NCBI GenBank assembly: GCA_020720045.1
Contig: DYPH01000074.1
Coordinates: forward strand, 1-32,045
Length of the DNA stretch: 32,045 bases
DNA from: Sorangium cellulosum
GTDB lineage: Bacteria; Myxococcota_A; Polyangia; Polyangiales; Polyangiaceae
Direction of reading: 5' to 3'
The notes below the pieces were generated by a model that had not been told where the DNA came from, made no database searches, and worked only from the letters and a program-made list of their open reading frames with translations. The first letter of the stretch is position 1. Each line of letters starts with the position of its first letter. Of this stretch, positions 6,466 to 25,530 are shown in pieces. Position numbers and translations under genes: made by a program.

Positions 6466-7529
6466 CTTCCCGCCTCCATTTCCGCGCGATCCGCCTCGCC
6501 GGCGGGGACGGTCACATCAAAGCGTACGCCGCCGGTCGTCGGCACGAGCCACACATCTCCACCGGCGCTCCGCAAAGCCTCCCGTGCCGTCGCCAGCCCG
6601 AGGCCCATCCCCTCCGGTTTTGTGGAGAAAAATGGCTCAAACAGGCGTGTTTCGACCCACGACGGGATGGGCGCCCCTCGGTTCTCGACCTCGATGCGGA
6701 CGAAGTGCCGGTCGGGGGCTGCGCGAAGGGAGACCGCAGTCCCCGTCGGGTTGGCGTCGAGGGCATTCATGACGAGGCTTGCCAGTACTTGCTCCAGCAT
6801 AAGCGGATGAATTCGTATGCAATCAATGGCGGGATCCACGGTGACTTCCAGGGTGTGGTTTCCGGCACGTAGAACCCCTCGGAGGAGACTCTTGAGACGG
6901 TTCAGCACCCGGCCGAGGGGGATCCCTTCGCGGGACGGGCTAAGCGCTGCAAAGTCGACAAGGCCATCGACGATCCGACACAGGGTTCCGGTTGCGTCCC
7001 GAATCCCTTGAATCGACTCGCGAATATCAGGAGACTCGCAGGCACACTGACTCAAGCTTTCCAGGTTGAACAGCATCGCGGAGAGCGGGTTTCGGACGTC
7101 GTGGGCGATGTTCGCGACGAGGGCGCTGATCGCCTCGGTGCGCTGCTGATGGAGGCGCTGGACCAGGTTTTTTCGACCCGAGAATATTTCCTGGAAGATG
7201 AGAATCGTGCGCCCTTCCTCGGCCGGATACCGCCGGACCGCAAGCAGGGCTGTTCCCGTCGACCACTCACGAGGCTCGCCGACGGGGCCGGTGACGAGCT
7301 CCCGCCAGACCGCAAGAGGGAGCAACGGCTGCCCCGCCTGTGCCGCGATTCCCGCGCGCGCAAGCATCGAGACCGCATCGGGGGTCGCCAAGACGACGTC
7401 GCCGCCGGCCTCGCAGAGCAGGGTCGCACGCTCCGTCCCGTCGCCAGTGAGTGGGCTGGCGTCATCCCCCGCACTATCCATGCTCACCGTCCCCATGACG
7501 CCTTCCTGGTCGCGAATCCAATCCTTCAT
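6462..7529 (-). CDS. Cytosolic sensor histidine kinase
   Basis: The C-terminal half carries a complete kinase: H-box VANIAHDVRNPLSAML (His at residue 143 from the chosen start), N-box VMNALDAN, G1-like VENRGAPIP, F-box LFEPFFSTK and G2 GMGLGLA. The first ~115 residues look like a degenerate PAS-type sensor (LLCEAGGDVVLATPDAVSML ... TILIFQEIF). No membrane segment is present, so it probably senses an internal signal. I chose ATG 7529, preceded by an AGGGG tract; a TTG at 7580 would add 17 residues, and later in-frame ATG codons exist. The stop overlaps the response-regulator start (TCAT on the plus strand), so the two should be made together. It is unlike the membrane-bound kinases of the NtrB-PilS type. 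Confidence 0.88.
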   Translation of the reverse strand: MKDWIRDQEGVMGTVSMDSAGDDASPLTGDGTERATLLCEAGGDVVLATPDAVSMLARAGIAAQAGQPLLPLAVWRELVTGPVGEPREWSTGTALLAVRRYPAEEGRTILIFQEIFSGRKNLVQRLHQQRTEAISALVANIAHDVRNPLSAMLFNLESLSQCACESPDIRESIQGIRDATGTLCRIVDGLVDFAALSPSREGIPLGRVLNRLKSLLRGVLRAGNHTLEVTVDPAIDCIRIHPLMLEQVLASLVMNALDANPTGTAVSLRAAPDRHFVRIEVENRGAPIPSWVETRLFEPFFSTKPEGMGLGLATAREALRSAGGDVWLVPTTGGVRFDVTVPAGEADRAEMEAGR

Positions 7530-7748
7530 AGGCCCCTGTCTTTGTCGGCCCGCGGTTACCGGCGTGGTCGCGGTCAGCAAGATTGCTGGTCGACGCCGGC
7601 GGACGGGGCCCCTCCCCCGAGGCGCCGATCATCGTTCAGTAAAACCTGAAAGCAGGCATCCCAGCAAGCGCTCTTCTTCGTTCCCCGAGCGTCTCGCGCG
7701 GGAACCGCCCCCACAAGGGCGACGAACGAGGTGCATGCGCGACAAACG

Positions 7749-7780: not shown

Positions 7781-7795
7781 CTTTACGATGAGAGC

Positions 7796-7868
7796 GTCCC
7801 CAAGGGGATTCGAACCCCTGTTAGCGGCGTGAAAAGCCGCGGTCCTGGGCCGACTAGACGATGGGGAC
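7796..7868 (-). tRNA. tRNA-Glu: tRNA-Glu (anticodon UUC)
   Basis: The minus-strand sequence folds into a cloverleaf. The 7-bp acceptor stem is GTCCCCA/TGGGGAC. The D-arm lies between GTC and GAC. The anticodon stem GCGGC/GCCGC closes the loop TTTTCAC, giving anticodon TTC. The T-arm is AGGGG-TTCGAAT-CCCCT. The discriminator on the 3' side is G at 7795, and CCA is not encoded. A promoter-like element precedes it and a strong terminator follows. No integrase or duplicated 3' end is visible, so I see no sign that it serves as an attachment site. Confidence 0.97.
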
Positions 7869-23413: not shown

Positions 23414-24730
23414 ATGAATCCTCTCGAAATTCCGCTCCCGAATGGCACCGATGTCGTTGTGCGACGGCTCCCCGGAGACCGGCTCGACGCATCGATCGCG
23501 GACGGTATCGCCGGTCGTGTCGGAGGCGTTCTTCCGGATGGCTCCGTGCAGGTTACACTGATTGGCGGACGGCAAATCACCGTCGCGCGACCGGCCGTCG
23601 TCCCTGCGAAGGCGGGGCAGTTTCGTTTTGCAGCCCGCCGGGAAGCAACCTGGAGCCGGCTCGGACCGGGCGCTTCAAACGGCGCGATCGTCCTCGAGAC
23701 GATCGTCGGCTCACGTGCCTGGGGGCTTGCCACCGAGTCTTCGGACACCGATCGCCGCGGTCTCTTCGCCGCCCCATTTTCGCTGCGCCTCGGGCTCGTT
23801 GCGCCGCCCCAAGATCTCGTCTCCGCCGACGGGAGCGCCAGCTACTGGGAAATCGGAAAGGGGATCGCCCAAGCGCTCCGCAACGACCCAAACACGCTTG
23901 AGATGCTTTTCATCCCGTCGGCGCGCGCCACCGACGAGATCGGCGCGTGGATCTTGGAAGAACGTGACGCCTTCCCCTCGAAGGAGATGCTCGGCTCCTT
24001 CGGACGTTATGCGCTTTCTCAATTGAGGAAGCTCGCAAGCACCGCCCGCCTTCATTCCTACCGCGAGCAGCTTTTTTACTGGCTCCGTACGGAACCGAAC
24101 CTTGCGCTCGATACCGCCGTGGAACGCCTCGCGAGCCTCGCCGTCACCGACGGGAAGGCGACGCCGCAAACGGCCAATGCGGCCACACGCACGGAGGCCA
24201 AGGAACGGATTAAGCAGCTTTATCGATCTCTTGCCGATCGGCAGGTGCTCCCCGAAGCGACGTTCGCAGCCCTGCGTGCCTTCGCCCAGGATCCGCTGGC
24301 GCATGCACGGAGTGAAGATTCTCTGGGGCCGGCGCTCCCCGCGCCATTTCGCCCGAAGAATGCATACAATCTCCTTCGGTTGATGGCGACTGCCGAGCAC
24401 TGGCTCGCCACCGGGACGCCGGAATTTGCCTTTGGAGGGGCCCTCCATGACCGACTTTTTTCGATTAAGCGCGGCGAGGTCCCTCTCGATGACGTCCTCG
24501 CCGAAGCGACGGAGAAGGCCCGCGCCGTCGAGGAAGCGCAGCGAAATTCGCCGCTGCAGGCACGCGCCGATGTGCGCCGCGCCGATGCGCTACTGCGGCG
24601 TTGCCAGGAAGAACTCCTTCGACGCCACGCGGCGCGCGTCCCCGGGATTTTTGGGGCCGATGCGCCGGAACCGGAGCTGCCGAGCGTCGACGCCGGTGGT
24701 GACGAAGACGATGTAGAAGGGAACTCGTGA
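23414..24730 (+). CDS. RlaP-family nucleotidyltransferase (RNA-repair-associated), first of a pair
   Basis: Residues ~92-215 match the RlaP/COG3541 polymerase-beta-like nucleotidyltransferases: GSRAWGLATESSDTDRRG with Asp111 and Asp113, then YWEIGKGIAQALRNDPNTLEML and FPSKEMLGSFGRYALSQLRKL. By alignment with the family pattern the third acidic residue should lie five before Glu146; it is Ser141 here, so catalysis may be weak or need the partner. An N-terminal region of ~90 residues with beta-strand character precedes the domain and is unassigned; a helical region follows. RlaP is linked by context in other genomes to RNA repair, but no RtcB, RtcA or Ro60 is visible here. Its stop (TGA) shares a base with the ATG of the next gene. 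Confidence 0.83.
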   Translation: MNPLEIPLPNGTDVVVRRLPGDRLDASIADGIAGRVGGVLPDGSVQVTLIGGRQITVARPAVVPAKAGQFRFAARREATWSRLGPGASNGAIVLETIVGSRAWGLATESSDTDRRGLFAAPFSLRLGLVAPPQDLVSADGSASYWEIGKGIAQALRNDPNTLEMLFIPSARATDEIGAWILEERDAFPSKEMLGSFGRYALSQLRKLASTARLHSYREQLFYWLRTEPNLALDTAVERLASLAVTDGKATPQTANAATRTEAKERIKQLYRSLADRQVLPEATFAALRAFAQDPLAHARSEDSLGPALPAPFRPKNAYNLLRLMATAEHWLATGTPEFAFGGALHDRLFSIKRGEVPLDDVLAEATEKARAVEEAQRNSPLQARADVRRADALLRRCQEELLRRHAARVPGIFGADAPEPELPSVDAGGDEDDVEGNS

Positions 24731-25530
24731 TGACCAACGCCCACCTCGGCTGGAGCTGCCTCTCCGACGCGCAAGCGGCCGAAGCGACGACCTTTCTTGC
24801 CGCGCGCTCCGCGGAACGGAGGCACGTTGTCGTCTACCTAAGCGGAGCCCACGCCTACGGCTTCCCTTCGCCGGACAGCGACCTCGATCTCAAGGCGGTC
24901 CACCTCGCCCCGTTGGAAGATCTATGCAGTCTGCATCCAAAACTCGGCGGCGCCGAGCGGACCGAATTCCCCAATGGGGTCGAGCTCGATTACTCATCGA
25001 ATGAACTCGAGTCGGTCCTTCATGGCTGTTTGAAGGGGAACGGGAACTACCTCGAGCGGCTCCTCGGCGTAACAACGCTCGTGGAAGACCCGTGTGTCGC
25101 CGAACTTCGTGGACTTGTTCGCGAGAACCTCTCGGCGCGCGCCTATCACCACTACCGCGGCTTTGCCTTTCGGCTCATGGAAGAGGCCAAGGTCAAACGG
25201 ACAGCAAAGAAGCTTCTCTACGTATTTCGTGCGACGCTGACCGGCGCTCATTTGCTGAAGACCGGCGAGATCGTCACCGACGTGACGAAGGTCATGCACC
25301 CCGACTTCGCCGATCTCGAAGAGCTTCTCGCGATCAAGCGGCGCGGGGAGGGGGCGCTCGTGAGCGGACCGGTCGATTGGTTCGCAAGGATCGATGCTGC
25401 CTTCGCGACCCTCGACGAGGCGCTGGCGACGACCGTCCTCCCGCCGGCGCCGGAGCGCATCGATCGCCTCGATTCCTGGTTTCGCGACACCCGCCTCGGG
25501 TATGCGCGGCGGGGCGACGGTTCCACCTGA
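24730..25530 (+). CDS. RlaP-family nucleotidyltransferase, second of a pair
   Basis: The 266-residue protein is a paralogue of the upstream gene product, closer in length to typical single-domain members. The motif SGAHAYGFPSPDSDLDLKAV gives Asp51 and Asp53; ELDYSSNELESVL supplies the third acid Asp87 five residues before Glu92, and KGNGNYLERLL matches the family's NP-x2-LE-x-L block. It therefore keeps the full predicted triad that the first copy has lost. ATG 24730 overlaps the preceding TGA as TGATG, which makes reinitiation likely; GTG 24727 is also possible. Substrate is unknown, presumably an RNA end or a protein. A cluster of inverted repeats follows the stop. Confidence 0.83.
   Translation: MTNAHLGWSCLSDAQAAEATTFLAARSAERRHVVVYLSGAHAYGFPSPDSDLDLKAVHLAPLEDLCSLHPKLGGAERTEFPNGVELDYSSNELESVLHGCLKGNGNYLERLLGVTTLVEDPCVAELRGLVRENLSARAYHHYRGFAFRLMEEAKVKRTAKKLLYVFRATLTGAHLLKTGEIVTDVTKVMHPDFADLEELLAIKRRGEGALVSGPVDWFARIDAAFATLDEALATTVLPPAPERIDRLDSWFRDTRLGYARRGDGST

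Follow-up and report, generated by a model that had tools for sequence, protein, structure and literature searches.

A coupled pair of RlaP-family genes

The stretch of DNA analyzed here (hereafter the window; 32,045 nucleotides of a Sorangium cellulosum contig) carries two adjacent genes, P1 and P2, whose open reading frames share a single base at TGATG, with a Shine-Dalgarno-like AAGGG (24717–24721) lying 5' of P2 (Table 1). Both proteins exceed the curated Pfam cut-off of 23 bits for the RlaP family (RNA ligase-associated Pol-beta; PF10127/COG3541). The sequence-only reading had described overlapping neighbors that both belong to this family; the coordinates and the profile matches agree with it on both counts, and neither protein was found to lack a PF10127 match. 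The window genome has no PF10127 genes other than P1 and P2, and a sister genome contains a full-length copy of P1 that is 89% identical. The flanking genes are ordinary, encoding Nudix, DUF4349, Alginate_exp-type outer-membrane and amidohydrolase proteins. The sole Rfam match in the window is a tRNA gene on the minus strand (7795–7868).

Table 1. Features of the RlaP pair in the window and arrangement of related loci. Positions refer to the window unless a contig is named.
Feature	Position	Strand	Remarks
P1, A-type RlaP nucleotidyltransferase homologue	23414..24730	+	438 aa; PF10127 E 7.8e-17, 62 bits; stop TGA 24728-24730
P1 N-terminal SH3/KOW/Tudor-like small beta-barrel	23414..23611	+	approximately residues 1-66; found only in the A-long clade
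P1 signature GSRAWGLATESSDTD	23708..23752	+	D111 codon 23744-23746; D113 codon 23750-23752
P1 Ser141	23834..23836	+	at the third-carboxylate position (P2 Asp87), from profile-profile alignment
Shine-Dalgarno-like AGAAGGGA and stop/start overlap	24715..24732	+	AGAAGGGA 24715-24722, TGATG 24728-24732; couples P1 to P2; basis: sequence
P2, B-type RlaP nucleotidyltransferase	24730..25530	+	266 aa; PF10127 E 1.2e-25, 91 bits; start ATG 24730
P2 signature GAHAYGFPSPDSDLD	24844..24888	+	D51 codon 24880-24882; D53 codon 24886-24888
P2 Asp87, third catalytic carboxylate	24988..24990	+	72/72 rows
L038, L048			rtcR followed by A and then B; rtcB-rtcA divergent
L069			as L038/L048 but B before A; divergent from rtcB-rtcA
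L041			rtcR-A-B, Ro60 convergent
L142 (A-long type, as in the window)			A-B, convergent rtcR, divergent Ro60-orf-rtcB-rtcA
PF09414 RNA ligase region L177	G000 C132:38000-50000		window genome
PF09414 RNA ligase region L178	G000 C269:1-8000		window genome

Among phage proteins, the nearest PHROGs profiles are phrog_388 for P1 and phrog_14344 for P2. Together with T4 nrdC.11, most orthologues of which match COG3541 (PMC1524935), these phage nucleotidyltransferases belong to the same superfamily as P1 and P2, but the matches are distant, at under 40% identity.

Active sites and predicted structures

The nucleotidyltransferase signature G[SA]x(9–11)SDxD is present in both proteins, and its aspartates are strictly conserved: D111 and D113 of P1 in 63 of 63 ungapped rows, and D51 and D53 of P2, as well as D87, in all 72 rows. 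The third carboxylate is where the two differ, as a profile-profile alignment places S141 of P1 on D87 of P2 and E146 of P1 on E92 of P2. By this placement, E146 is not the counterpart of D87. Across the 52 rows of the A-long clade, to which P1 belongs, position 141 is occupied by Ser in 46, by Thr in three, by Asp in two and by Glu in one; in most of the genuine A-short proteins, the equivalent residue is Asp or Glu. Asp139, found in 50 of the 52 A-long rows, might act as a stand-in for the third carboxylate. We infer that catalysis by the A-long subunit is altered or impaired and that, of the two subunits, B is more likely to be the active enzyme.

The models were predicted with high AlphaFold2 scores (pLDDT 90.1 for P1 and 94.6 for P2). 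The N-terminal barrel of P1, absent from A-short proteins, superposes on archaeal L21e with a VIA-align Z of about 8 (rmsd 2.0 over 64 residues), and KOW, PWWP and Tudor barrels give similar values. Folds of this SH3/KOW/Tudor type often bind nucleic acids, and peptides too. Given this barrel and the change of the third carboxylate to Ser or Thr in 49 of 52 rows, the main role of P1 may therefore be to bind RNA or to regulate. Aminoglycoside nucleotidyltransferases match the P2 model at Z up to 9.7 (rmsd 4.2 over 205), HalB, the oligodeoxyadenylate synthase of the Hailong system, matches it at Z 9.0 (rmsd 4.5 over 171), and the P1 core resembles HalB as well (Z 8.8, rmsd 4.0 over 171). All of these Z values, that of the barrel included, are moderate. 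What is common to HalB and the pair is a Pol-beta-type nucleotidyltransferase core followed by a helical C-terminal part. A search for solved relatives by sequence gave no sensible match for P1 or P2 alone and no significant match for the P2 profile; the best match of the P1 profile, a ribosomal protein (E 0.0014), covers a helical segment and appears fortuitous.

Two ancient subfamilies kept together

RlaP genes occur in 25 of the 57 genomes of the order, mostly as two side-by-side copies, and by our own tally an adjacent or fused pair is present in 34 of 282 genomes of the phylum. An A gene lies in the flank of, or is fused to, the B gene at 71 of 80 named B loci, including members of the Acidobacteriota, Actinomycetota and Planctomycetota; of the nine B loci without A, two sit at the end of a contig and another shows a weak match to A. 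Solitary A or B genes occur in some cases. The sequence-only reading had looked to relatives for conservation of the pair as neighbors, and such conservation is seen both in the order and in the phylum. Paired genes are arranged as A-B, B-A or convergently, so their linkage is not a frozen duplication. They are also fused into single proteins, both as A-B (L067, L161 and L170) and as B-A (L061, which is the same as L101, L077, L078 and, by motif, L079). The clearest split pair was observed in L035 (11842–14875; also L160), where two minus-strand genes of 186 and 663 aa lie between A and B.

In a tree of 60 cores from Myxococcota, Acidobacteriota, Actinomycetota and Planctomycetota, A and B are reciprocally monophyletic, each forming one clade (100/96), and a recent duplication of P1/P2 is thereby ruled out. 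Two family members lying side by side could suggest a recent tandem duplication with no joint function; that reading is scarcely credible for separate ancient clades that co-occur in several phyla and whose genes are arranged in every possible order. On the sequence evidence, A and B are an ancient, nearly always paired set. The occurrence of two distinct subfamilies as a fixed pair or fusion sets them apart from the RlaP family as generally described, as do the N-terminal barrel and the replaced third carboxylate of the P1 clade.

The pair follows RtcR across genomes

In the order, RtcR and RlaP occur together in 21 genomes, RlaP alone in four, RtcR alone in none and neither in 32, so that all 21 RtcR genomes carry RlaP (one sub-threshold RtcR match, in G022, was left out of this count). 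Shuffling within families gave a mean of 14.2 and a maximum of 20 joint occurrences in 20,000 trials (p about 5e-5), and 21 was never reached in 20,000 trials when genomes were shuffled within genome-size bins. Across the phylum, the odds ratio for RlaP and RtcR was 18.6 (p 1.8e-20), and 13.4 among RtcB-carrying genomes, both from a test that ignores kinship. RtcB is present in 32 of the 34 pair genomes of the phylum and RtcR in 26, leaving two without RtcB and eight without RtcR. By gene content, the RlaP pair follows RtcR almost perfectly.

This distribution also bears on whether P1 and P2 could be a toxin-antitoxin or defense pair, in which B would be a MenT-like, tRNA-modifying nucleotidyltransferase toxin restrained by A. 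Two small, translationally coupled genes would suit such a system, and toxins of the nucleotidyltransferase type that act on tRNA ends are known (PMC11541572, PMC10435456). However, A and B are homologous, both keep the DxD motif, they fuse into single proteins, and the pair tracks RtcR while a PADLOC search gave no match for either protein; we regard a toxin-antitoxin role as highly improbable.

Linkage to Rtc genes and sigma-54 promoters

The pair adjoins rtcR in five relatives (Table 1), usually with rtcB/rtcA or Ro60, and the RNA-repair genes that the sequence-only reading had named as support if found near the pair in some genomes are thus present. In addition, rtcR lies about 5 kb from the pair in S. 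cellulosum So ce26 (L122), and a Ro60-like gene with a sub-threshold TROVE match follows B at L175, in the L048 genome. The Poisson chance of four independent linkages is about 2e-4, a rough estimate that takes the span as 20 kb out of 8 Mb and the number of genomes with the pair as about 110. In a scan for sigma-54 sites, strong ones before rtcB served as positive controls. In L038, L041 and L048 the scan placed a near-consensus site in the gap that separates the end of rtcR from the start of A; no more than seven sites scored this high in the 1.04 Mb scanned, and these account for three of them. In some relatives, then, the pair appears to be switched on by the Rtc system. In most genomes, including that of the window, the pair lies apart from the Rtc genes and lacks a sigma-54 site. 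Expression in the window genome is probably independent of RtcR, since the scan found no such site upstream of P1.

Clustering of the neighbors of 61 loci revealed no conserved neighbor besides the Rtc genes; the other recurrent clusters, each judged from one representative and with cluster c4 left out, comprise a kinase, a helicase, a sigma factor, an enoyl-CoA hydratase and an SDR protein. Together with the PADLOC result, this led us to reject a defense island. The same data weigh on the possibility that the pair makes a HalB-like oligonucleotide signal, perhaps read by an unlinked effector or by RtcR, which has a CARF-type sensor domain (PMC7790460). Both models match HalB, but aminoglycoside nucleotidyltransferase folds match equally well and there is no significant sequence relation to HalB. 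Moreover, no conserved gene beside the pair is a candidate effector, and where promoters are readable the sigma-54 promoter precedes the pair, which places it on the output side. We therefore think a signaling role very unlikely.

Two further features of L142 were observed. Directly 5' of its RlaP pair and rtcR-Ro60-rtcB-rtcA locus are an AbiEii-like nucleotidyltransferase, below the Pfam cut-off, and a small partner (27–1231), and a 224 aa protein without a Pfam match is encoded between Ro60 and rtcB (6967–7641).

RNA-repair genes elsewhere in the window genome

The sequence-only reading had seen no RtcB, RtcA, Ro60 or RNA ligase near the pair and had suggested a compact two-enzyme module for end processing or RNA tagging. 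The first point holds for the window but not for the genome, where other contigs carry a complete rtcR/rtcB/rtcA locus (C104), Ro60 (C224) and two PF09414 RNA ligases (Table 1); the ligase seemed to be lacking because the window limited the view. With ligases on other contigs and RlaP tracking RtcR across the phylum, we reject a stand-alone, ligase-free module, although the chemistry may still be end processing or RNA tagging. The association with RNA ligation and repair that characterizes RlaP is accordingly found here as linkage in relatives and as co-occurrence with RtcR and RtcB, rather than as adjacency in the window genome.

A proposed heteromeric RNA-end nucleotidyltransferase

We consider it reasonably probable that P1 and P2 are the A and B subunits of a heteromeric, template-independent nucleotidyltransferase of the Pol-beta superfamily and an accessory of Rtc RNA repair, with an activity and substrate that we infer. 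A stricter version, to which we incline less than evenly, is an obligate heteromeric RNA-end nucleotidyltransferase with a fully catalytic B and an A in which the third carboxylate is lost or moved and an RNA-binding-type barrel is present. The RNA-repair context agrees with that described for the RlaP family in PMC7824862 and PMC6514570, both of which draw on previous studies. It also resembles the Salmonella RtcR-rtcBA-rsr (Ro60) operon, as relatives have the same regulator, ligase, cyclase and Ro60 by the pair and the same sigma-54 promoter logic (PMC7790460). Compared with the Salmonella operon, the RlaP pair is additional (the term "nucleotidyltransferase" is absent from the text of PMC7790460), and in the window genome it is on a separate contig from the rtc locus.

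In Salmonella, RtcR binds tRNA halves bearing a 2',3'-cyclic phosphate and drives rtcBA (PMC7790460), and RlaP is predicted to restore nucleotides lost from RNA ends ahead of ligation (PMC7824862); we take paired RlaP to be a heteromeric version of this predicted end restoration. Under our proposal, tRNA cleavage would lead RtcR to raise RtcB/RtcA and, where linked, the pair. B would then add nucleotides onto damaged RNA ends, and A, with its SH3/KOW-like barrel and, in the window clade, its altered active site, would help hold or select the RNA. The likeliest purpose would be the restoration of eroded ends, which RtcB or an Rnl2-type ligase would then seal.

Hand-over to RtcB would not be straightforward, because RtcB joins 3'-phosphate or cyclic-phosphate ends to a 5'-OH. 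Conventional nucleotidyltransferases, by contrast, extend a 3'-OH, and their product would feed an Rnl2-type ligase more readily. This mismatch leaves room for a role at another end, or for tailing, in which the pair would add, for example, A or C to broken or unrepairable RNA and so commit it to Ro60/PNPase decay or removal from circulation rather than rebuilding. Beyond the end chemistry, tailing is consistent with Ro60 near the pair in L142, adjoining it in L041 and L175 and present in the window genome, and with the degradation of structured RNA by Ro60 and PNPase in Deinococcus (PMC7790460). However, TROVE was found in only two of 12 pair genomes tested, compared to RtcB in 32 of 34, and we judge tailing unlikely.

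If the proposal of an obligate A/B enzyme is true, it would constitute a previously uncharacterized third enzymatic arm of RtcR-linked tRNA repair. RlaP enzymes take their name from gene context. In the literature searched, we came across no activity described for a paired RlaP, and no demonstration of RlaP function or of the RNA end acted on. The fixed A/B pair, its natural fusions, its tracking of RtcR and, in some genomes, the promoter type shared with RtcR point to a defined two-protein complex with an expected inducer, cyclic-phosphate tRNA halves, and RlaP function is therefore directly testable. Assays of a single RlaP may fail for want of the partner.

Other features of the Rtc and ligase loci

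The RtcR of the window genome (L092, 10963–12879, on C104) has a long Gly/Ser-rich insertion within its CARF-like RtcR domain, because of which its match to PF06956 is broken into three. On the same contig, the sigma-54 site that precedes rtcB is degenerate at -12 (TGGCACGCCCCCTGAA). In the neighborhood of the C132 ligase, several candidate SMC/AAA or OLD-type ATPases are encoded, as judged from ORF starts alone.
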